DNA of 30,756 nt, taken from IMG/VR virus record IMGVR_UViG_3300022591_000047, positions 1 through 30,756 of that record, one strand, 5' to 3'. Shown piece after piece: positions 4,197-28,367 of this stretch (position 1 is its first letter; the number at the start of each line of letters is the position of its first letter). This DNA is from a virus. A model generated the notes under the pieces. That model worked only from the letters and a program-made list of their open reading frames with translations. It had not been told where the DNA came from and ran no database searches. Both the position numbers and the translations under genes were made by a program.

Positions 4197-4547
4197 ATGG
4201 ATGAGCGGGTTGAAAAGGCATTTGAAATTGCCAATTATATGTCTACATTGTCTAATCAAAGACGTGTGGCATTAGAAGAATTAGAACAAAAATTAGTACA
4301 CTATACTAATGGCGGCACTTTCAAAATTACGCCTACCCTAATTAACTTTACCAAAACAGTTTTGGATTTAGGTCATGACAGTGACATGGCATTTATTGAT
4401 GAAAATAATTTGCCAATCCTTATTAACGATGTACAAAAATTCTTTGACACGATTGTTGAAATTTATTTCCAAGCAGTAAATGAATATGCATCTAAGTATG
4501 CTGAAATTAAATCTAAACGTAAAGTAGAGGATATAGTTAAACTATGA
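4197..4547 (+). CDS. Hypothetical protein, 116 aa, helical
   Basis: A small, charged, mainly helical protein beginning MDERVEKAFEIANYM and ending KRKVEDIVKL. No signal peptide, membrane segment or catalytic motif is visible. It opens the operon that carries the glycosyltransferase-like genes; its stop codon overlaps the next start as ATGA (4544-4547), which suggests coupled translation. An upstream hairpin covers its ribosome-binding site. I do not recognise the family with confidence; similar short proteins occur next to fibre genes in marine T4-like phages. A role as a chaperone or assembly helper for a fibre would be a guess. Confidence 0.6.
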   Translation: MDERVEKAFEIANYMSTLSNQRRVALEELEQKLVHYTNGGTFKITPTLINFTKTVLDLGHDSDMAFIDENNLPILINDVQKFFDTIVEIYFQAVNEYASKYAEIKSKRKVEDIVKL

Positions 4548-5389
4548 CCCGTGGCGGATTAATATTTGCTCAAAATAACGGCACAGTTGATTACATAAAA
4601 CTTGCTGTATTTGCCGCCGCACGAGTGGATGAGTTTCTTGGTATTCCTGTAACATTAGTCACTGATAATCTTGACTGGCTAGAAAAGAATTATCCCAATC
4701 ACAAGTTTGATCATGTTATTGAAGTTAAGAATGAACAAGCACGGTATAAAAAGTTTTACGACGGTAGTTTAGCATCTAAGCAATTAATGTGGAAGAACAC
4801 AACTCGCAGTCAAGTGTATGACCTTAGTCCTTACGATACTACACTAGTTATTGACAGTGATTATATTCTTAATAGCGATATTTTGTTATCTGCTTTTGAT
4901 AATGATTATGACTTGCAACTATACAAGAAAAGTTTTGATCTAGCAGGTTGGAGAGATACTAGTAGCTTTACACGTATTAATCAATATTCAATTCCTTTTT
5001 ATTGGGCTACAACTTTTGTATTCCGTAAGAATTCTGTTATGGAAGCGTTCTTTACTTTGATCACACATATTAAAGATAATTGGGATTACTATAGAGTTTT
5101 ATACAATATGGATAGTAATTTATATCGTAACGACTACGCATTTAGTATTGCGATACATTTAATGAATGGAAAGACTGATGGTAATTTTGCTGTTGAACTT
5201 CCAGGTACAATGACCTATATAACTGACAGAGATTTAATGCTAGATATGAAAGATACCAGTATGAATTTTCTTGTAGAAAAGAAAAATCATTTAGGCGAAT
5301 ATTTTGCTGTTAAAACCCAAGATATTGATGTACATGTTATGAACAAATATAGTCTAACACGTTTTATAGACGGAGGTTCAGGTGTCTAA
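4544..5389 (+). CDS. GT-A-type glycosyltransferase-like protein (pair 1, copy a)
   Basis: A 281-residue protein starting GGLIFAQNNGTVDYIKLAVF and carrying a D-x-D-like motif, LVIDSDYI, at residues 102-109, after a predicted Rossmann-like half. This layout fits GT-A nucleotide-sugar transferases of the GT8 kind, in which the acidic pair binds a metal and the sugar nucleotide. It is paralogous to the next gene (FAQN.TVDY at the start, YDTT.VIDSDYI against YDETIVLDGDML). It overlaps its neighbours at both ends. Substrate is unknown; virion proteins or host surface glycans are possible acceptors. Donor specificity cannot be read from the sequence. Confidence 0.6.
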   Translation: MTRGGLIFAQNNGTVDYIKLAVFAAARVDEFLGIPVTLVTDNLDWLEKNYPNHKFDHVIEVKNEQARYKKFYDGSLASKQLMWKNTTRSQVYDLSPYDTTLVIDSDYILNSDILLSAFDNDYDLQLYKKSFDLAGWRDTSSFTRINQYSIPFYWATTFVFRKNSVMEAFFTLITHIKDNWDYYRVLYNMDSNLYRNDYAFSIAIHLMNGKTDGNFAVELPGTMTYITDRDLMLDMKDTSMNFLVEKKNHLGEYFAVKTQDIDVHVMNKYSLTRFIDGGSGV

Positions 5390-6224
5390 AGGGTTCCTTG
5401 TATTTGCACAAAATACTGACACAGTGGATTATGTGCGCCAAGCATACGCATTGGCTTTAAGCATTAAGACAAGTCAGCATACAGTTAAGGACATTAGTCT
5501 AGTGACTAATAGCCCAGTACCAGAAGAGTATAAAAGTGTGTTTGACCAGATTATTCCAATTCCGTGGTGGGAAGAAGCTAGCACAAGTTTACAAGCAGAG
5601 CATCGCTGGAAGTTGTATCACTCAACACCATATGATGAAACTATTGTGCTTGATGGTGATATGCTGTTCTTAGATGATATTAGCGATTGGTGGGAGTATC
5701 TATCCAATCATGAGATTAAGTTTTGCTCACGAGTGTTAAACTATAAGGGTCAGGCAATTGGTCCTGATCCATATCATCGTAAGGCGTTTATTGCTAACAA
5801 TTTGCCTAACCCGTATTACGCATTACACTATTTTAAAAAGACAGATAAAGTATTAGCATTTTACAAAGCACTTGAGTTTGTTATCAACAACTGGGAATTG
5901 TGCTATGGTAAATTTGCACCTAAAGAATATCAAAATTGGGTTAGCATGGATTTAAGTTCTGCTATTGCTATTGACATTGTAGGCTTACATGGTGATGCTA
6001 TTGATGCAGGATGCCCGTTAGAGTTTGTACATATGAAAGCACCATTGCAAGGTTGGACGCCTATTCCGTCAAGCTGGCAAGAAGCTGTACCTGTACACTA
6101 TAACAAGAATAAAGAATTACTAGTGGGCAATATTAAACAACCAAAGTTATTTCATTATGTAGAAAAAAATTTCCTAACTGACACATTGTTAGCAAAATTG
6201 GAGGCCGCATGTACGATGAATTAA
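5382..6224 (+). CDS. GT-A-type glycosyltransferase-like protein (pair 1, copy b)
   Basis: A 280-residue protein with GTG start; GGAGG lies 5 bases upstream, inside the previous gene, and the two genes overlap by 8 bases. It begins KGFLVFAQNTDTVDYVRQAY and has VLDGDMLFLDD at residues 89-99, the D-x-D motif expected of a GT-A enzyme. A Trp-rich centre (PIPWWEEAS, SDWWEYL) and a late His (LEFVHMKAPLQGW) resemble GT8-like proteins, where a distal His completes the metal site. It is the tandem paralogue of the preceding gene. Activity and substrate are inferred from motifs only. Confidence 0.62.
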   Translation: MSKGFLVFAQNTDTVDYVRQAYALALSIKTSQHTVKDISLVTNSPVPEEYKSVFDQIIPIPWWEEASTSLQAEHRWKLYHSTPYDETIVLDGDMLFLDDISDWWEYLSNHEIKFCSRVLNYKGQAIGPDPYHRKAFIANNLPNPYYALHYFKKTDKVLAFYKALEFVINNWELCYGKFAPKEYQNWVSMDLSSAIAIDIVGLHGDAIDAGCPLEFVHMKAPLQGWTPIPSSWQEAVPVHYNKNKELLVGNIKQPKLFHYVEKNFLTDTLLAKLEAACTMN

Positions 6225-6808
6225 CTGACGAGCAAATAGAGGCAATGTCTTACAAACAACCTCCTGTACAATATTTTGCTTGCTATGATAAAAAAACAGG
6301 AGAGATTAGTGCAATTACTAACGCATATAATCCGTCGTATCCTAATCAACTTGAAATAGATGCGGCAACTGCACATCCGTTTCTTAGCGGCGAAATGAAC
6401 TTTGTTGACTATGTAGTAACCTACGGTAAGAACAAAGATAAAAAACTTGAGCTGATGCTTGTACCCAAAGTAGACTATATGCATAGTTTACAAAACAAAA
6501 TTTATGAACAAGTAGAAAATACTACCAATTTAGATACTAAAGATTTTATTGTAGAATGGACTAAAGACGGTTGGAACTTTATTCTTAATGCTACTATTGA
6601 TAATGATTTACTAAAAAATTTAGTATTTTTTATCACATATGAAACTAATGTTGATGCGCTAATCCGCACAATTACCATTGATACAGAAGATCTATATCAG
6701 CCAGTACACGTGCCATTTATTACAATACAAGAACATAACATTGATAATTTAGCAGTATCTACTAAATCAGTATTTGGTTCCTATGGATTGAGAATTAGCC
6801 ATGATTAA
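6209..6808 (+). CDS. Hypothetical protein, 199 aa, in glycosyltransferase cassette
   Basis: Begins MYDELTDEQIEAMSYKQPPVQYFACYDKKTGEI with GGAGG 6 bases before the ATG; overlaps the preceding gene by 16 bases and the following one by 8. The protein is acidic and rich in beta-prone segments (YFACYDKKTGEISAITN, FVDYVVTYGKNKDKK, DFIVEWTKDGWNFIL). No membrane segment or catalytic motif is seen. It separates the two paralogous glycosyltransferase pairs and is translationally linked to both, so it may act with them, for example as the acceptor virion protein or an adaptor. That link is inference; I do not recognise the family. Confidence 0.6.
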   Translation: MYDELTDEQIEAMSYKQPPVQYFACYDKKTGEISAITNAYNPSYPNQLEIDAATAHPFLSGEMNFVDYVVTYGKNKDKKLELMLVPKVDYMHSLQNKIYEQVENTTNLDTKDFIVEWTKDGWNFILNATIDNDLLKNLVFFITYETNVDALIRTITIDTEDLYQPVHVPFITIQEHNIDNLAVSTKSVFGSYGLRISHD

Positions 6809-7697
6809 AATTATTGAACAAGATATCATCTTCCTTAGTTATGATGAACCAAATGCTGAAAAAAATTATGCAGACTTGCTGACTAAAGCACCGTGGGCAA
6901 AACGTGTACACGGAGTTAAAGGCAGTGATGCCGCACACAAAGCATGTGCCGCATTAAGTGAAACAGAATATTTTGTTACTGTAGATGCTGACAACATTGT
7001 TGATCCAAAGTTTCTTGAAGTTGAAATTAATTTAGATGAACTTGGACTAACACCTAATCATGTATTCAGTTGGTGCGGTAAGGTTCACGTTAATCATTTA
7101 ATGTATGGCAACGGCGGTCTTAAATTATGGACACGCGAGTTTGTTAACAATATGCGAACCCATGAAAACTCAGATCCTAACGATGTTAAGGGTCTAGTAG
7201 AGTTTTGTTTTAATGATTACTACTATCAATTCAATGAATGTTATAGTGAGAGTTTTACTAACGGTAGTCCGTTTCAAGCATGGAGAGCAGGATTCCGTGA
7301 AGGCGTAAAAATGTCATTAGAACAAGGTGCTAAAACTAAAGACATAAAATCAATTTGGTGGCAAAACTACCAACGTTTAATTGCCTGGTGTTCAGTTGGT
7401 TCTGATGTGGAGAACGGAATGTGGTCCATTCTTGGCGCACGTGAAGGATGTTACTTAACTAACTGCACTAATTGGGACTATGCTAATGTACGTGATTTTG
7501 AATATCTAACAGAACATTGGCAACGACAGCATGAAGGCAAAGATCCTGAGGATACTTCTGCACATATAAATTACTTGTTTAAAGAACTAAGAGATAAATG
7601 TCAACTTGAAATTGCTAACTTAGATCCGGCAGGTAGTAAGTTCTTTAAAGCAATATATCAAAATGCTCCAAGAAGGAATCGTCGCGCAAATGTATGA
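6801..7697 (+). CDS. GT-A-type glycosyltransferase-like protein (pair 2, copy a)
   Basis: A 298-residue protein starting MIKIIEQDIIFLSYDEPNAEKNYADL. It has the signature of a group of phage GT2-like proteins: FLSYDEPNAEKN at the N-terminus, AKRVHGVKGSDAAHKAC, then VTVDADNIVDP at residues 59-69, where DAD is the expected metal/nucleotide-sugar motif. Later segments GNGGLKLW, FQAWRAGFRE and LIAWCSVGSD are shared with the next gene. The start overlaps the previous stop. Acceptor and donor sugars are unknown; context with fibre genes suggests decoration of virion or host surface. Confidence 0.65.
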   Translation: MIKIIEQDIIFLSYDEPNAEKNYADLLTKAPWAKRVHGVKGSDAAHKACAALSETEYFVTVDADNIVDPKFLEVEINLDELGLTPNHVFSWCGKVHVNHLMYGNGGLKLWTREFVNNMRTHENSDPNDVKGLVEFCFNDYYYQFNECYSESFTNGSPFQAWRAGFREGVKMSLEQGAKTKDIKSIWWQNYQRLIAWCSVGSDVENGMWSILGAREGCYLTNCTNWDYANVRDFEYLTEHWQRQHEGKDPEDTSAHINYLFKELRDKCQLEIANLDPAGSKFFKAIYQNAPRRNRRANV

Positions 7698-8400
7698 TAT
7701 AATTTTTATCAGTTATAATGAGCCAAATGCTGAAAAAAACTTTTCTATTTTAAAAGAACGATTTCCGTTAGTTAAGCGTATAGACGGAGTTGTAGGCATA
7801 CACCAAGCACATATTGCCGCCGCAAAAAAAGCATTTACTAAAATGTTTTGGGTAGTAGATGCTGACGCAGAAATACTACCATCATTTAAATTTGATTACA
7901 TTGTACCTGAATGGGATTTAGAAACAGTACATGTGTGGCGCAGTCGTAATCCTGTTAATGGATTAGAGTACGGCTACGGCGGAGTTAAACTATTGCCTAA
8001 AGATCTAACTAAAAACATGGACTTATCTAAAACAGATATGACCACAAGCATTAGTAAGTCATTTAAACCTATTCCGGAAGTGAGTAATATTACAGCATTT
8101 AACACAGATGCGTTTAGTGCATGGCGTTCAGCATTTCGCGAATGTGCTAAGTTAGCTAGTAATACTATTGATCGTCAAGATAGTTCAGAAACATTTGAAA
8201 GATTAATAACTTGGTGTACTACAGGTGATGAACAACCTTGGGGCATCTATGCCATTGCAGGCGCACTCGCCGGCAAAACATACGGTGAAAGAAATGCCGC
8301 TGATCAAGCGGCATTGAGTAAGATAAATGATTATACCTGGTTGCTAGATAAGTTTAATTCTGAACAAGCTCATCAGCCATTGGAAAGATTTCAGAAATAA
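7690..8400 (+). CDS. GT-A-type glycosyltransferase-like protein (pair 2, copy b)
   Basis: A 236-residue paralogue of the preceding gene. I place the start at the ATG at 7690 rather than the in-frame ATG at 7663: the protein then begins MYDIIFISYNEPNAEKN, matching the paralogue's first strand, and AAGG lies upstream, while 7663 has no ribosome-binding sequence. WVVDADAEI at residues 54-62 holds the DAD motif. GYGGVKLLPKDLTKNM, FSAWRSAFRE and LITWCTTGDE repeat those of the paralogue. It lacks about 60 residues found in copy a. Its last 47 bases overlap the 3' end of the convergent thyX gene. Confidence 0.65.
   Translation: MYDIIFISYNEPNAEKNFSILKERFPLVKRIDGVVGIHQAHIAAAKKAFTKMFWVVDADAEILPSFKFDYIVPEWDLETVHVWRSRNPVNGLEYGYGGVKLLPKDLTKNMDLSKTDMTTSISKSFKPIPEVSNITAFNTDAFSAWRSAFRECAKLASNTIDRQDSSETFERLITWCTTGDEQPWGIYAIAGALAGKTYGERNAADQAALSKINDYTWLLDKFNSEQAHQPLERFQK
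8293..8315 (-). terminator. Candidate terminator for the minus-strand early block
   Basis: AATGCCGC and GCGGCATT form a perfect 8-bp stem with a 7-base loop. Read on the minus strand, just past the thyX stop, the stem is followed by a T-rich TTTCTTTC tail. The hairpin lies inside the plus-strand glycosyltransferase-like gene, where the opposite flank is not T-rich, so it would act mainly on minus-strand transcripts. Structure is seen; termination is inferred. Confidence 0.4.
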
Positions 8401-10511: not shown

Positions 10512-11702
10512 TTATGCTGTAGCCTTTGCAAACTCGTAGTATGCGTACTCGCCAAATGGCGGAACAATTTTATCATTGCCATGGATAATGAATACTGTGT
10601 CACAGTAATTTTCATCGCCCCAGCTACCCCAGGGATAACCGTCTGTGAACATGATAAACTTTTTAGGGTTAATATCATTTTCTTTCATGTATTCCCAGTT
10701 GGCATCAAAGTCTGTACCGCCACCACCCATGACTTCATAGTTATCAAAATCATCCATTGAGTAACCATCAAAGTCTTGCTCGTTGTAAACTCGTGTATCA
10801 AAGCACCAAACTTTAATTTTAAAGTCTTGATATTCTTGCATGATACCTTTGATTTCAGCCATAAAATCTTTAGCTTGCTCATCACCGATTGAACCAGACA
10901 TGTCGATTGCTACACAGATATCAATTGTTTCTTGGAATTGTTGACCTGGCAGTACTGCATTCATGTGCCATCCCTTACGGTTAGGACGCATAAATGAATA
11001 GTCATTCTTGATAGTGCTTTGGATTTGTTGACGCAAAATATCACGCCAATTCATCTTAGGCTCAGTCAGCTCTTTAATCATGCGTTGAATGCCTGCAGGC
11101 GTATTACCCGCACCCGCTGCCTGAGCCGCCGCAATAGTAGCTTCGCGGATTTCATCGCGAATTTGTTTTAGTTCTTCTTTAGAATATTTAGGTTTGTTGC
11201 CACTACCATTGCCATCTTGGTTACCCCAATCGACGTGATCATCAAGCAACTGTCCTAATGCTTCTAATTGCTCGTCATCCATTTTATCTTTAATGTCGTC
11301 ATAGACGGCTTCGGCCGCCCAGCCGTAGTATTTAGGATCGTGGAAAATTTTAATTTCTGGAGGTTGTTCTCCAATGCGGTCGCGTACTAATTGCCCGTTA
11401 ACGCAATAGTCAGCGGCAATGTTGAAAATCTTACGATCACGGCCTTCAGTACGACCCAAGTGATCAAAAACATTATGGAGGATTTCATGTGCAAGAACAA
11501 ACTCAATTTGTTTAACACTAAGTGGCGTAAAAAAATCACGGTTAAAGAAAACAGTACGACCGTCTGTTGCGGCAGTAGCACACCACTCACTGCCATCTTT
11601 AATTTGTAGGCGTGTAGCCATATTACCAAAGAATGGATGACGCAGTAGCAGACCAACTCGTGCTACAATAATTTTATCGATAATTGGATCTAAATGTGCC
11701 AT
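10512..11702 (-). CDS. DUF2201-type metallopeptidase/VWA-like protein
   Basis: A 396-residue two-domain protein. The N-terminal half has HEILH at residues 72-76 and a further His at 81, the zinc-site pattern of the putative metallopeptidase domain of the DUF2201 family. The C-terminal half is a von Willebrand A-like domain with a MIDAS: DMSGS at 267-271, Thr330 in GGGGTDF, and TDGYPWG at 353-359. Such proteins pair with MoxR-type AAA+ ATPases, one of which is encoded just upstream, as chaperone-like or metal-insertion machines. Its own perfect sigma-70 promoter and AAGGAG site suggest early, strong expression. Cellular target in infection is unknown. Confidence 0.85.
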   Translation of the reverse strand: MAHLDPIIDKIIVARVGLLLRHPFFGNMATRLQIKDGSEWCATAATDGRTVFFNRDFFTPLSVKQIEFVLAHEILHNVFDHLGRTEGRDRKIFNIAADYCVNGQLVRDRIGEQPPEIKIFHDPKYYGWAAEAVYDDIKDKMDDEQLEALGQLLDDHVDWGNQDGNGSGNKPKYSKEELKQIRDEIREATIAAAQAAGAGNTPAGIQRMIKELTEPKMNWRDILRQQIQSTIKNDYSFMRPNRKGWHMNAVLPGQQFQETIDICVAIDMSGSIGDEQAKDFMAEIKGIMQEYQDFKIKVWCFDTRVYNEQDFDGYSMDDFDNYEVMGGGGTDFDANWEYMKENDINPKKFIMFTDGYPWGSWGDENYCDTVFIIHGNDKIVPPFGEYAYYEFAKATA

Positions 11703-11727
11703 GAATGCTCCTTAACTGTATGTATAT

Positions 11728-11756
11728 ATTATAACAGGGACCGTAGTCCCTGTCAA
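11728..11756 (-). promoter_or_regulatory. Perfect consensus sigma-70 promoter for the VWA gene
   Basis: On the minus strand TTGACA (11756-11751) and TATAAT (11733-11728) are separated by exactly 17 bases, a full consensus match. The predicted start lies near 11721, giving a leader of about 20 bases with AAGGAG before the ATG at 11702. The spacer is a perfect palindrome (separate entry). It should be read by unmodified host RNA polymerase early in infection. Confidence 0.8.
11734..11753 (-). promoter_or_regulatory. Perfect 8-bp palindrome with TACG loop inside the promoter spacer
   Basis: ACAGGGAC, TACG, GTCCCTGT: an 8-bp perfect stem closed by a C(UACG)G tetraloop, one of the most stable RNA loops. 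It occupies the whole spacer and the last three bases of the -35 box of the VWA promoter, 20 bases past the moxR stop codon. It may be an operator, a terminator-like hairpin for the moxR transcript (the downstream tail TATAATATATA is AT-rich but not a T tract), or both. Confidence 0.55.
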
Positions 11757-11772
11757 TTGATGCTATGCCAAA

Positions 11773-12861
11773 TTACTTCTCAGTGGCTTGGGCAATGTAC
11801 TTACCAAATTTAGTATGAAACTCATCAAAACATGCAATCTCATCTGGATCCAATGGCAACTTATAAGTTGACAATGCAATCTTAGTACCCATAATAACCA
11901 ACTCAGTTTCGAAGTTCTTCATCATGAATTCAAAGAAGCAGTTAACTTTTGAGTTCCAATCTTTGTCTTTCTTGTCGCAAGCATCTTTTAGCTCATAGCA
12001 CAATGACACAGTTAAAGAATACATAGCTGAAATCTCTTTTGAGTTCATTGTTTTAACTTTGCCATTCAAAATATCACGTGGATCTGGCATTTTGCTAGAA
12101 ATCTTACGGTGTGCCATAAACTTAACAGCAAGGCCTTCACCAACTGAACCCGATACTAAGTCTGCTAATGTTTCAACATCACAGTCGTCATCATGAAGCA
12201 ATTCGCTTACAAATGCCCAAGAGCGTGGTGTAGCAAATGCACGTGAGCTAGACTTTGGATCGAAGTCATACAAGTCTTTCTTAGAGAAAGTCAAAAAGCC
12301 TACAACGTCTTTATGGACTTTGTTTTCAGTAGCCCACTCAAAGTAGTCATCCCAATCCACTGTCATTTCTAAGTGAACAAAACGATTAGCCAACGGAGCA
12401 GGCATACGATAAGTAACACCCTTGTCAGTTTCACGGTTACCTGCGGCAACGATTACAACGTTTTCTGGCAAATAGTAAGTACCAACACGTCGATTCAAAA
12501 TAAGTTGATAAGCGGCGGCTTGTACACTAGGTGCCGCAGAGTTCATTTCATCCAAGAATAGGATAATTTGTTTATGATTCTTAGCAAATTCTTTGCTAGG
12601 CAATTCTGAAGGAGGTGCCCAACGCATAGTGCCATCGTTGGAATCAAAGTATGGAATACCTTTAATGTCTGTAGGCTCCCACAATGACAATCGGACGTCA
12701 ATTACATGAGCTTCGAGCTCAGTGCCCAATTGTTTGATAATATCCGACTTACCAATGCCGGGAGGACCCCATACAAAGATTGGACGCTGATTTTTAAATG
12801 CTTTACGCAGTGACTTTTTAGCACCTTTTGGGCCCACTGTGCGACTGATAATCTCGCTCAT
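11773..12861 (-). CDS. MoxR-type AAA+ ATPase
   Basis: A 362-residue AAA+ protein. Walker A is WGPPGIGKS (31-39), Walker B LFLDEMN (101-107), sensor 1 AAGN (139-142), and PAPLANRFVH (154-163) carries the likely arginine-finger region. The order and spacing fit the MoxR branch, which works with VWA proteins to remodel or activate client proteins. The downstream gene encodes the expected VWA partner, but the two have separate promoters. It lies between unknown early genes; the client in the infected cell is unknown. Start is the ATG at 12861 with AGGAA upstream. RavA/MoxR relatives appear in bacterial stress and defence contexts, so a host-manipulation role is possible but unproven. Confidence 0.88.
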   Translation of the reverse strand: MSEIISRTVGPKGAKKSLRKAFKNQRPIFVWGPPGIGKSDIIKQLGTELEAHVIDVRLSLWEPTDIKGIPYFDSNDGTMRWAPPSELPSKEFAKNHKQIILFLDEMNSAAPSVQAAAYQLILNRRVGTYYLPENVVIVAAGNRETDKGVTYRMPAPLANRFVHLEMTVDWDDYFEWATENKVHKDVVGFLTFSKKDLYDFDPKSSSRAFATPRSWAFVSELLHDDDCDVETLADLVSGSVGEGLAVKFMAHRKISSKMPDPRDILNGKVKTMNSKEISAMYSLTVSLCYELKDACDKKDKDWNSKVNCFFEFMMKNFETELVIMGTKIALSTYKLPLDPDEIACFDEFHTKFGKYIAQATEK

Positions 12862-12911: not shown

Positions 12912-12940
12912 ATTATACGTGGAAGTGCTAGAAGTGTCAA
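12912..12940 (-). promoter_or_regulatory. Perfect consensus sigma-70 promoter for moxR-type gene
   Basis: TTGACA (12940-12935), a 17-base spacer and TATAAT (12917-12912) on the minus strand. The upstream gene's TGA stop (12939-12937) is part of the -35 hexamer. The leader of about 45 bases ends in AGGAA before the ATG at 12861. The match is complete, so host polymerase should use it strongly. Confidence 0.8.
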
Positions 12941-18792: not shown

Positions 18793-19632
18793 TTAAGTTC
18801 CCCACTCATTTTTAAATAATGGCACTTGTAACCGATCACTGTATCGTAATCCATGTTTCATCGCCATGTCAGCAACAGCTCTGTTATTAAGGGTGTAAAC
18901 ACTTTCAACGCCTCCGACTGGCATTAAGTAGACATGACCTTTAAATCCAGCGGCACGATATTCGCTAGCGGCTTTAAGAGCATAATCTCGATCTTCTTCT
19001 GTAGCAATAACAAATTTCAAATATGCTGTACCGATGTCTTCATATTCGCATACAACTTCTGGAAGAATTGCTTCCTCCCACTTTTCACCACTGCAAGGAA
19101 GTTTGGCACTTACACTAAATGTAAGTTCTTTGCCTACTTCACTATTCCACTTAGCTAAGTAACCTTTAAATTCTGGAGTAAGTTTTTGAGTACCATTTGT
19201 TTCAAATGTGATCTCTTTCAATGCTTTCATCTTAGAATTGTTTAACAAATCTGGATAAGCACGTTGCCACCCTAGTAGTGGCTCGCCACCTGTAATAACT
19301 AGATGTTCATCTAACCATTCATTGTGCGGAAGAATTTCCATAATGCGATCTGCTATAGCATCCGATGTAAGCATTGGGCTAAGATCCTTAAAGCGAGGAT
19401 CCCAGCTAGCATAGCTATCGCAACCTGTAGACACCAAAGGAAGTTCTTCATATTTTTTATATTTTGTTGGATCAACATTATTTGCTTCTTCGCTTAGTTC
19501 GCCTTTAGGCATACCAAAGCCTGCACATTTAAAGTTACAACCAAATGTGCGTAGAAACACAGAAGGGACGCCCATATAGCGTCCTTCACCTTGAATTGAA
19601 TAAAACAACTCAGCTATTTTAATTTTGCTCAT
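18793..19632 (-). CDS. queE: 7-carboxy-7-deazaguanine synthase QueE (radical SAM)
   Basis: Converts 6-carboxy-tetrahydropterin to 7-carboxy-7-deazaguanine in the preQ0 pathway. The N-terminus KIAELFYSIQGEGRYMGVPS and FLRTFGCNFKC are classic QueE. The radical-SAM cysteines appear as C32 and C36, with the third most likely C71 in STGCDSYASWDP, where the usual motif ends C-D-T. That gives C-x3-C-x34-C, with an inserted loop. ITGGEPLLGW (113-122) is the SAM-binding GGEP. The 279-residue length is above the usual 210-240. Its start overlaps the preceding gene by 14 bases. FolE lies three genes upstream; QueD-like and DpdA-like genes lie further upstream. Confidence 0.92.
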   Translation of the reverse strand: MSKIKIAELFYSIQGEGRYMGVPSVFLRTFGCNFKCAGFGMPKGELSEEANNVDPTKYKKYEELPLVSTGCDSYASWDPRFKDLSPMLTSDAIADRIMEILPHNEWLDEHLVITGGEPLLGWQRAYPDLLNNSKMKALKEITFETNGTQKLTPEFKGYLAKWNSEVGKELTFSVSAKLPCSGEKWEEAILPEVVCEYEDIGTAYLKFVIATEEDRDYALKAASEYRAAGFKGHVYLMPVGGVESVYTLNNRAVADMAMKHGLRYSDRLQVPLFKNEWGT

Positions 19633-19963: not shown

Positions 19964-20178
19964 CGCATTTCCTCAAACCACTCGTCAACCATTTCTTCTG
20001 CTTCTTGTTGTGTAAGTGCAGGGACAAAAATACGTGCAGGTTGTCCAACAGTATGTTGTACATCAAATTTAATTACACCAGTTAATGGTACATCATCAAA
20101 CTCGCGTTCGACTACAAATTCTTGTAAATTTTTAGCACGGTTGATCAATTGATCAGTTAGGTCTTTTGCAGTTGTCAT
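19960..20178 (-). CDS. Hypothetical protein, 72 aa, between folE and queE
   Basis: Begins MTTAKDLTDQLINRAKNLQEF and ends QQEAEEMVDEWFEEMR. Two acidic helices flank a beta-rich centre (PLTGVIKFDVQHTVGQ). The ATG overlaps the folE stop (ATGA). No named domain is visible. It is translated between FolE and QueE. Confidence 0.6.
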   Translation of the reverse strand: MTTAKDLTDQLINRAKNLQEFVVEREFDDVPLTGVIKFDVQHTVGQPARIFVPALTQQEAEEMVDEWFEEMR

Positions 20179-20870
20179 TTTGAAGCATACTCCTGTTGCA
20201 TTTTAATGTTATCAAAGAATTCTTTCTTTGTACCCATGTCGTCTTTAAACGCACCTTTCAATACTGTGGTCTGTGTTAAACTACTCTTGGCCATAATGCC
20301 ACGGTTTTCACAACACCCGTGAACGGCTTGAACATATACTGCTACGTTTTCTGAGTCGGTTGCTTTTTGGATCTCCCGAGCAATGTCATTACAAAGCTCC
20401 TCCTGGAGAGTACCTCGTCTAGCGCACCATTGTGCGATGCGTGTGTATTTGCTAAGTCCGATGAGCTTTTGAGCCGCAATGATACCAATATAAGCAACAC
20501 CGGTAACAGGCTGGTGATGATGACTGCACATAGAACGCAACTCACTGCGAACCACGAGCATGCCTTCATAACGATCTGCGCTGTCGTTTGGAAATGCCGT
20601 TGCGTCTGGTGCTTTTTCATATCTACCTGCCATTATTTCGTTGTAGTACATTTTAGCAAGGCGACGAGCTGTACCTTTGCTGTTAGGATCTGTTTCGCGG
20701 TCAATAAGCAATGTATCTAGCACTTTTTCAAATGCTGTAGTTGCCTCATCAATTAGAACTTGTTTTTGTTCTTCGTCAACGTAATCACTAATGTTATCTC
20801 CAGCCCAGAATCGTTTATTCTGTGCTTTCATTTGTTCGCGGATAACTTGCGATAAATTCTTTTCACTCAA
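20175..20870 (-). CDS. folE: GTP cyclohydrolase I FolE
   Basis: Opens GTP to 7,8-dihydroneopterin triphosphate, the first step for both folate and 7-deazaguanine synthesis. The 231-residue protein has the FolE zinc ligands: C115 and H118 in LRSMCSHHHQPV, and C186 in QAVHGCCENRG. GIIAAQKLIGLSKYTRIAQWCARR and TLQEELCNDIA also match. Start is TTG at 20870, chosen because GGAGA lies 6 bases upstream and no ATG fits. A sigma-70-like promoter precedes it. With queE downstream and the QueD-like and DpdA-like genes upstream, a role in deazaguanine DNA modification is more likely than folate supply. Confidence 0.94.
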   Translation of the reverse strand: MSEKNLSQVIREQMKAQNKRFWAGDNISDYVDEEQKQVLIDEATTAFEKVLDTLLIDRETDPNSKGTARRLAKMYYNEIMAGRYEKAPDATAFPNDSADRYEGMLVVRSELRSMCSHHHQPVTGVAYIGIIAAQKLIGLSKYTRIAQWCARRGTLQEELCNDIAREIQKATDSENVAVYVQAVHGCCENRGIMAKSSLTQTTVLKGAFKDDMGTKKEFFDNIKMQQEYASK

Positions 20871-26220: not shown

Positions 26221-26461
26221 TTTTCTTTTCTTCCCATACTTTAAACATTCGAGTTACTTCTTCCATACGTTCTTGAAACACATGGGGCGAACCTTCTGCG
26301 GCCTGTTGCATATCCCAAGGACTAGGATAATGACGTAAGATGCCGCGAGCACGTTGACGTAGTTCTTTAGGAACCCGTTTTGTGATATTTGGATCACTTA
26401 GTGCAATTAAAAACTCTTGTGCTTGTATTACAGCACGATATCTTTCGTCAGGTAATGTCAT
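26210..26461 (-). CDS. BPSL0761-family protein, 83 aa
   Basis: MTLPDERYRAVIQAQEFLIAL, then TKRVPKELRQRARGILRHYPSPWDMQQAA, matches the pattern of the small BPSL0761 family found in proteobacteria (M-T-x-P-D-E-R start, RVP..LR..A...LRHYP). Function of that family is unknown. The protein is helical and basic. Its ATG overlaps the DpdA-like stop (ATGA). The nearest cellular relatives being proteobacterial would fit a proteobacterial host, which is a weak inference. Confidence 0.72.
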   Translation of the reverse strand: MTLPDERYRAVIQAQEFLIALSDPNITKRVPKELRQRARGILRHYPSPWDMQQAAEGSPHVFQERMEEVTRMFKVWEEKKNEA

Positions 26462-28017
26462 TCAAATAAATTATCAAAAGTTGAAGTTAAGGGTTTATCA
26501 TCTTTAGCAACAGGTTTGTCTTTTGCTAAATTTGCTTCGATTTCAAAATGCTTATCTGCGTATGTACTTGAGTTTACAGTCTTTTTGCCTGTAGCACCAC
26601 GAGTACCGATAATTTCCATCCAGTATTTGTTATACTCTTCAATCAATGCATCACTTTTACCTTTACTACTTGTAGCAAAGATTTCGTTTACAATGTCTTT
26701 AAAGAACATTTGATTATATGACAAATTATTCTTTGGAGCAACATCTGCGACACTCATCATAGATGGCATTTTACCTGCATCATATTGACGATTGGCTTCT
26801 TGTACTGCATTAATATGCATCCAAACATTATGCCCCATTAGTAGCGCATAACTAAAGCTGTCCCATGATGTCTTACCTTCTTTGCCATTCTTATTTAGGT
26901 CGCCGGGAGCATAGATACAAATATCTTTCATTTGCAATTGATCGATAAGCGGACTAGATTCAAATCCAGTAAAGATACCATCTTGTATTACTGCATCTTT
27001 GAAGAGTCGTGTATCTGTTGCATACTTCTTGTCGTCTGCAGAAGCCTGCATACGGTAGACCCACTTTGTTCTATCTTCGGTTTCTGTCTGGATGTAGACT
27101 TGTCCATTTGCTGTGGCGAGGAACGGTGAGGCGCAATCAAAAGAGATGGTAAATTGGTCATTATGATATTTCCTTACGGCACGTTGAAGATCAGTTAGCA
27201 AGACAGCCCATTCGAGCTTGCTTGTACCCAAGAAGTGCATCCAATCCTGTTCGCCCTTCTCAAGCAATCCCTCAAACCTTAAAGTGTTAATACGCTTTAA
27301 GACTAAGTGAATATCGCACATATTCTGACCACCCATACCCCAACCGTTAAATGCACGGTCGCCGTATTGTTTTGGGTCACAATACTTTTTCATTCTATCA
27401 TACCAATCGTCTGCATCAGCATGGTTTTCACCTTGCAAGACGTTTAGGAATTTACAGTTGCCATTACGATTGTTAACAAACCAATCGTTGTTAATATATG
27501 TACCTTGTACTGCTTCTGCATAGGTAGTAATACCTGTAGCGGCAGCACCTGCCGGACTACGAGCTACCCACGCTGGGATATCAAGCCCCATACCGTAATC
27601 CATTAACGTGTCCATCCAAGTTAATACTTGAGCACGTTTCTTTTGTGCTTGTGGACAGTTAGGATCTTTCCAGTCAGCTGGCCAAACACCTTTACCAATC
27701 TGGAATCCGCCCGAGTCACCTAACACCCAACTAGTATTACGATCTCGATTGCGGAACATGTCCTCGCTTTCATCTTGTTTAGTTAAATCAAGATTAGCGT
27801 GTCCTGCTGAATACAAACAATGGTCGTAGTAGAACTGCCCCTTTTCAGGTTCAAGATAATTAAGACTTTCAACACCATTAGTAAGACTTGGCGGAATACG
27901 TGCAGGATCTACATAATTACCATAACGTTGCTTACCGATAAAAGTAGAATAGAATCCACTTGTTGCCGGTAAGAAGTATGCGTAATCGTTTTGTGTTGCT
28001 GTTAAGTTCTTATTCAT
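26458..28017 (-). CDS. dpdA: DpdA-like tRNA-guanine-transglycosylase-family protein (DNA 7-deazaguanine insertion)
   Basis: Start at ATG 28017, which overlaps the upstream TGA as ATGA, gives 519 residues. The TGT active site is visible in order: DSGGFQ (101-106, base recognition Asp101), LNVLQGE (191-197), GWGMGGQ (225-231), MHFLGTSK (260-267) and ISFDCASPF (291-299), where Asp294 corresponds to the TGT nucleophile in FDCV. The zinc motif CxCx2C of tRNA TGTs is absent, and the C-terminal 200 residues are unlike tRNA enzymes. Both points fit DpdA, which exchanges guanine in DNA for a 7-deazaguanine. FolE, QueD-like and QueE in the same block would supply the base. Confidence 0.82.
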   Translation of the reverse strand: MNKNLTATQNDYAYFLPATSGFYSTFIGKQRYGNYVDPARIPPSLTNGVESLNYLEPEKGQFYYDHCLYSAGHANLDLTKQDESEDMFRNRDRNTSWVLGDSGGFQIGKGVWPADWKDPNCPQAQKKRAQVLTWMDTLMDYGMGLDIPAWVARSPAGAAATGITTYAEAVQGTYINNDWFVNNRNGNCKFLNVLQGENHADADDWYDRMKKYCDPKQYGDRAFNGWGMGGQNMCDIHLVLKRINTLRFEGLLEKGEQDWMHFLGTSKLEWAVLLTDLQRAVRKYHNDQFTISFDCASPFLATANGQVYIQTETEDRTKWVYRMQASADDKKYATDTRLFKDAVIQDGIFTGFESSPLIDQLQMKDICIYAPGDLNKNGKEGKTSWDSFSYALLMGHNVWMHINAVQEANRQYDAGKMPSMMSVADVAPKNNLSYNQMFFKDIVNEIFATSSKGKSDALIEEYNKYWMEIIGTRGATGKKTVNSSTYADKHFEIEANLAKDKPVAKDDKPLTSTFDNLFE

Positions 28018-28367
28018 TTTATCCAATGTTGTGCTAGTACCATTAAGCTCAACCATGCCCACATAGTATTAAAACCTACAAGGGTTGGTAATGCTTTCTT
28101 ACGACTTGCCCAAATAAGTGTTACACTTGTTAAAAGTGTTAGATAGTATAGTTCCCAGATTTGAATACCAAAAATTAAACCTGGAATGATAATGATAGCT
28201 TTTGCCAACCAGCTAACAAACTCTACAGTATTATAACCGGTCCAGTATTCTTTTGTAAACCACATACCGTAGCAGTCTCGCATGTTACGCCAACCACTAT
28301 GTGTATAGCAGATCACCATTAATACTAACCATACTCCGACTGCTACTAAAATTTGATCTAACGTCAT
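28014..28367 (-). CDS. Three-pass membrane protein, 117 aa
   Basis: Hydrophobic segments: ILVAVGVWLVLMVICYT at the start, AKAIIIIPGLIFGIQIWELY in the middle, and YLTLLTSVTLIWAS, with a possible fourth at WAWLSLMVLAQHW. Loops contain several Tyr/Trp residues and RNMRDCYGMWFTKEYW. No named family recognised. ATGA overlaps at both ends link it to a DUF2061-like protein and to the DpdA-like gene. Confidence 0.65.
   Translation of the reverse strand: MTLDQILVAVGVWLVLMVICYTHSGWRNMRDCYGMWFTKEYWTGYNTVEFVSWLAKAIIIIPGLIFGIQIWELYYLTLLTSVTLIWASRKKALPTLVGFNTMWAWLSLMVLAQHWIK

Follow-up and report, generated by a model that had tools for sequence, protein, structure and literature searches.

The stretch analysed here (the window) is a virus record of 30,756 bases, and its source is a T4-like phage. 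On the minus strand it carries a gene for a MoxR-type ATPase and, after a gap of 70 nt, a gene for a protein that joins a metallopeptidase domain to a VWA domain. Each gene lies behind its own promoter, and the second promoter encloses a hairpin that was missed in the initial annotation. From upstream to downstream, the features are:

12912-12940, minus strand: moxR promoter, TTGACA-17-TATAAT (-35 at 12940-12935, -10 at 12917-12912; 12/12)
11773-12861, minus strand: moxR, open reading frame of 362 aa, MoxR-type AAA+ ATPase (Pfam)
11728-11756, minus strand: VWA promoter, TTGACA-17-TATAAT (-35 at 11756-11751, -10 at 11733-11728; 12/12), with TG at the extended -10 position
11734-11753, minus strand: hairpin ACAGGGAC-UACG-GUCCCUGU, in the VWA promoter spacer and 3' of the moxR stop codon; proposed terminator or 3' end of the moxR mRNA
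10512-11702, minus strand: VWA-metallopeptidase gene, open reading frame of 396 aa, N-terminal minigluzincin-like zinc domain and C-terminal VWA domain with full MIDAS

The pair was initially named from the letters and their translations, and the Pfam domains and intact motor, MIDAS, and zinc motifs agree with those names. The ATPase matches AAA (3.3e-7) and AAA_3 (3.8e-7; PF07726, 30.5 bits for a cut-off of 27), with Walker A as GPPGIGKS (32-39), Walker B as DE (104-105), and sensor-1 as N142. We aligned both proteins with those of IMG/VR relatives and reference phages (72 MoxR rows and 89 VWA rows, the window included), and MoxR residues G35, G37, K38, S39, D104, E105, N142, R160, and R213 are kept in at least 71 of the 72 homologues. 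The structure model of MoxR (mean pLDDT 76) has fold matches to NorQ, on its own as well as complexed with the VWA domain of NorD, and to CbbQ, and these two are its best MoxR-type structural matches. By analogy, a hexameric MoxR ring bound to a VWA partner is the most likely arrangement. An NCBIfam search returned weak generic matches only, all below cut-off.

The partner matches DUF2201_N metallopeptidase (2.4e-40) and DUF2201 VWA-like (8.4e-17) within one protein. Its HEILH zinc-site pattern, to which the initial annotation drew attention, occupies residues 72-76, and both H72 and H76 are found in 89/89 homologues. H81 and D98 of the zinc domain are likewise invariant among the 89 VWA rows, D98 being a possible further zinc ligand, and each of the MIDAS residues D267, S269, S271, T330, and D354 is present in 89/89. 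E73 is kept in 88 of the 89; the exception is Agrobacterium phage Atu_ph07 (L082), in which the motif reads HQILH, so that the catalytic glutamate is a glutamine and catalysis is not universal in the family. Peptidase activity may have been lost in that phage. The N-terminal domain has a weak sequence match to selecase, a minigluzincin (E 0.005), which is also its top fold match (E 0.03, probability 0.99). The AlphaFold model of the whole protein is poor (mean pLDDT 57), and past the N-terminal domain it is too weak to use. It should be noted that this family is labelled “HNH endonuclease” in PHROG 1314 and in many GenBank records. A Pfam search up to E=1 gave no match to an HNH domain, and the label is probably a propagated misannotation.

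Of 50,697 phage records searched with tblastn, 821 hold relatives of MoxR and 762 hold relatives of the VWA protein, and the pair is present in roughly 1.5% of records, from N4 to jumbo phages. The record counts for the two proteins are equal in Escherichia (187), Pseudomonas (112), Klebsiella (70), Erwinia (34), and Pectobacterium (26), and the motor, MIDAS, and HExxH motifs are conserved across jumbo, N4-like, and T4-like phages. Among IMG/VR relatives with enough upstream sequence (76, the window itself excluded), moxR is present in all 76 and directly adjoins the VWA gene in 75, the remaining one (L008) having a single inserted gene. Co-occurrence in related phages, which had been proposed as a check on the pair, is therefore seen both in these relatives and in the near-identical counts per genus. 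The accompanying suggestion that a phage copy of such a pair is unusual is not supported, given that homologues were already known from jumbo phages (Iyer et al. 2021) and from N4 (gp24/gp25). Adjacency has exceptions farther away; in Vequintavirus EmilHeitz both genes are present, separated and on opposite strands. Within the clade, where the proteins are ~75-90% identical to those of the window, the gene neighborhood of the pair is fixed and comprises replication and nucleotide genes, without structural genes.

Some other genes of the window merit a brief mention. Those at 18793-19632 and 20175-20870 encode QueE-like radical SAM and GTP cyclohydrolase I proteins, which suggests a 7-deazaguanine pathway, perhaps for DNA modification. 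The 534-aa protein encoded at 26458-28062 is without a Pfam or PHROG match, and its stretch “GDSGGFQIGKG” recalls, to the eye, tRNA-guanine transglycosylase-like (DpdA) proteins. The run of open reading frames at 4544-8400, 3' of a tail-fibre-like gene, appears glycosyltransferase-like by eye; the single one that was searched (4544-5389) has no PHROG match.

Both genes had been described as lying behind perfect host-type promoters, and this is what we find: each site scores 12/12 with a 17-nt spacer, and each is conserved. In the relatives, the moxR promoter scores 11-12/12 in 61 of 61, and the VWA promoter scores 10-12/12 in 75 of 76, the 76th (L008) having its 12/12 copy before the inserted gene. 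For comparison, a score of 11 or 12 is reached by about 2.6% of random 150-mers from the same loci, a figure that includes these promoters themselves. A skeptic might regard the sites as chance or compositional artefacts of an AT-rich phage, and it is true that sites of at least 9/12 are barely commoner in the window than in shuffled sequence (29 vs. 22.2, sd 4.1). However, the two 12/12 sites are the only ones in the 30.7-kb window, for which 0.12 are expected (first-order Markov control, both strands, any spacing of 15-19), and both sit just 5' of gene starts on the correct strand. Their conservation in all relatives refutes the chance explanation, to which we assign a practically negligible probability. 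That two dedicated perfect promoters are noteworthy also stands, as sites of the form TTGACR-17-TATAMT number only 0-6 per contig in 13 relative contigs of 60-165 kb and are most often those at moxR and VWA.

Other such sites in the relatives precede genes that, by reading of the sequence, encode a sliding clamp, FolE, and possibly a late sigma factor. Five relatives (L209, L213, L214, L222, and L223) have one of their few other perfect sigma-70 promoters (TTGACAGGCTCCGTTTAAGATAGTATAAT and variants) 5' of a phage DnaJ gene, whose identity is confirmed by Pfam. This distribution would fit transcription of chaperone and replication genes by the host polymerase in the early or middle phase, and from the type of promoter the pair would be expressed early. 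A literature search for RNA-seq on phages with the pair turned up nothing useful. The spacer of the moxR promoter has no hairpin (fold z +0.45); at 12922-12936 it does contain a direct repeat, GAAGTG-CTA-GAAGTG, which, with just two short copies, may be a chance match.

The VWA promoter differs in what lies between its hexamers. The spacer and the end of the -35 hexamer read ACAGGGAC-TACG-GTCCCTGT, an 8+4+8 inverted repeat that forms a perfect 8-bp stem closed by a tetraloop and whose folding is much stronger than that of shuffled sequence (z -3.9). A hairpin is present inside the VWA promoter in all 76 relatives, with small variations (a G-U pair in L031, shifted loops in L064 and L073). Across these relatives, 99.7% of stem cells are paired, and two-sided changes occur at five of the eight pairs. 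The covariation score is 0.457; shuffles give 0.107, slid versions give no more than 0.140, and the observed score was not reached in any of 500 shuffles. The outer ACA/TGT pairs are nearly invariant, since they double as the end of the -35 and as the extended -10. Likewise, the U-tract after the stem, UAUAAUAUAUAC, is poor, as the same bases must serve as the -10 box. Termination may therefore be partial, or the hairpin may instead protect or process the 3' end.

A perfect dyad placed exactly between -35 and -10, the site bound by many repressors, could also be an operator at which a dimeric repressor or activator controls VWA on double-stranded DNA. Two features speak against this. The half-site varies freely (GGACC, CCTCC, CCACC, CCGCC, GGGAC, GGAGC) with complementarity kept, and, of 60 distinct elements, 42 carry a UNCG (41) or GNRA (1) loop; a site in DNA would call for neither a free half-site nor a strand-bound loop. 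To follow the strand, we scanned IMG/VR with TTGACA-N5-loop-N5-TGTTAT and counted distinct contexts among the matches listed. Full complementarity was found in 65/103 of those with the loop TTCG, in 1/78 with GCTT, and in 0/89 with CGAA, the last being the strand control, in that it is the same hairpin read from the opposite strand. The tetraloop is thus strand-specific, so the hairpin acts in RNA, in the direction of the promoter, and not as a double-stranded operator. We consider the operator very unlikely and rejected it on the covariation and the strand control. Because the hairpin is upstream of the VWA start site, the RNA that carries it must be the transcript of the preceding gene, and we infer from covariation and loop strand that the hairpin works at the RNA level of the moxR transcript.

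Hairpins at this point are found well beyond the clade. There is a strong one at the moxR 3' end in Atu_ph07, RaK2, Vibrio phage 2.275, and Phosso, and, by inspection, in UB; that of Vibrio phage 2.275 (AAAAAGCCCGCC-UAGUG-CGGGCUUUUUU) is terminator-like and in the same place as the window's. Their occurrence at the same point in distant phages suggests selection for separating the two genes. Conversely, promoters with nested hairpins are found at other genes. In the T4-like phage RB49, several hairpins lie within sigma-70 spacers, between the -35 and the -10 (e.g., TTGACAggggatcggtgatccccTATACT, TTGACGgggatcgcgagatccccTATACT), and the TTCG form of the element precedes the genes for a gp44-type clamp loader (contigs L193, L088, L107, and L178), NrdB (L101 and L155), and gp32 (L185 and L174) in other viral contigs, where stem sequences differ and complementarity is kept.

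The reading that we favor, and think probable, is a separately fired MoxR motor and VWA/metallopeptidase co-chaperone, divided by a hairpin-nested promoter and directed at a phage complex. Host sigma-70 polymerase would start the moxR transcript just after the promoter at 12940-12912, and this mRNA would end, or have its 3' end trimmed or defined, at the UNCG-type hairpin; the VWA transcript would start a few bases past the hairpin, from the promoter that encloses it. The hexameric MoxR ring would engage the VWA protein at its MIDAS, and the substrate so presented would be cleaved or bound by the zinc domain. This substrate is most likely a phage assembly intermediate or another large complex of the phage, and less likely a host defence protein. 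The parts (MoxR ring, MIDAS adaptor, and zinc domain) are all present; contact among them and cleavage of the substrate are predicted by analogy with cellular pairs. In a broader form, uncoupled transcription of moxR and VWA might be a conserved design of the phage MoxR/VWA module, in which unrelated phages would put a terminator behind moxR and a new start ahead of VWA, and which the T4-like clade packs, terminator and start together, into a 29-bp promoter with the hairpin in its spacer. We offer this tentatively, as a possibility with the balance against it. If true, the dose or timing of motor and peptidase could be set separately.

Two other readings of the locus need to be weighed. With only 70 nt between the genes and a weak U-tract after the stem, moxR and VWA could form one operon, in which a leaky hairpin stabilizes or spaces the mRNA and the second promoter just boosts VWA. 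Terminator-like hairpins at the same place in distant phages with the pair (e.g., Vibrio phage 2.275) count against this, and we judge a single operon unlikely, if still a serious competitor. The other reading, raised in the initial annotation, concerns purpose: the pair may act early on the host, in takeover or anti-defence, by remodeling or cleaving a host complex. Perfect host-type promoters do suggest early expression by unmodified host polymerase, and N4 gp24/gp25 have non-structural genes around them and lie upstream of dCTP deaminase and DNA polymerase. However, a PADLOC search gave weak generic AAA matches only, the pair is conserved over phages of many hosts (anti-defence genes are typically patchy), and its neighborhood in the clade is fixed and made up of replication and nucleotide genes. 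Wide conservation and a fixed neighborhood suggest instead a housekeeping role in the phage cycle. The takeover proposal thus gained no positive support, and we hold such a role to be possible and distinctly improbable.

For the assembly role favored above, the only physical evidence that we found for the pair comes from a distant homologue. The virion proteome table of phage phAPEC6 includes gp265c, an ATPase of 49.52 kDa detected with 6 peptides, and gp259c, of 35.51 kDa; in phage UB, MoxR (49.50 kDa) and thymidylate synthase (35.51 kDa) match these two, and by mass and synteny with UB gp265c would be MoxR. For the VWA protein, of 54.1 kDa, the table has no suitable entry at the corresponding position of the gene order, and the same preparation also contained thymidylate synthase, SSB, and a RecA-like protein. 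The detection mildly favors an assembly role of MoxR, with replication proteins present alongside. We also count in its support the strong promoter 5' of the DnaJ gene in relatives.

In the literature we found no experimental test of function for a MoxR/VWA-metallopeptidase pair. The conserved motor, MIDAS, and (nearly always) zinc residues, together with the apparent transcriptional separation, make the pair testable in N4, a phage that can be grown on laboratory E. coli. The part most worth following is the fixation of the element between motor and partner gene. A strict signature, TTGACA-N5-UNCG-N5'-TGTTAT, retrieves the element 5' of the genes for clamp loader, ribonucleotide reductase, and SSB in other phages. 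It thus allows the class to be mapped and termination to be tested directly.

Regarding known systems, the cellular NorQ-NorD, CbbQ-CbbO, and RavA-ViaA pairs share with the window a MoxR ring and a VWA partner; we know of none among them in which the partner has a DUF2201 metallopeptidase domain. In N4 (Schitoviridae), gp24/gp25 are a homologous MoxR ATPase and VWA-metallopeptidase (HELWH, MIDAS) and neighbors in the genome. These two are middle genes, and, unlike in the window, no host-type promoter was found at them. Transcription of the N4 middle genes falls to an RNA polymerase that the phage encodes, gp15/gp16 (PMC2784036). For the MoxR-vWA chaperone-cochaperone pair of group 2.2 jumbo phages, a role in virion assembly and the processing of structural proteins was proposed (Iyer et al. 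2021, PMC7824862). It has the same two proteins in the same order, with the metallopeptidase domain N-terminal to VWA, and the Atu_ph07 proteins named in that study (ASV44729.1/ASV44728.2) match the window pair at 38% over 90% and 37.5% over 98%, respectively. Atu_ph07 differs in its HQILH motif and in that its junction hairpin is not nested in a recognizable promoter, whereas that of the window clade is.

For the regulatory element, the relevant comparison is with the promoter-early stem-loops (PeSLs) of T4-like phages, described as mediators of gene shuffling (Arbiol 2010; Comeau 2014, both as cited in a later paper). PeSLs share with the window element a strong sigma-70 promoter and a stem-loop, RB49 having the hairpins nested in the spacer. 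The VWA element likewise has a consensus sigma-70 promoter (12/12) joined to a stem-loop, and, because of the nested hairpins of RB49 and the TTCG forms before other genes, we file it, on sequence features, as a PeSL-type member fixed at one gene junction. As for shuffling, L008 has a gene (an open reading frame at 6940-7563, oxygenase-like by eye) directly 3' of the element, between the hairpin promoter and VWA, the latter being left without a strong promoter of its own. This insertion was possibly PeSL-mediated; the junction is otherwise fixed. Compared with PeSLs so described, the window element is set apart by its covariation and by having stayed at one gene junction throughout 76 relatives. 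The pair itself was already known; what is new is the composite element, which joins a known class as an unusually well-supported member.
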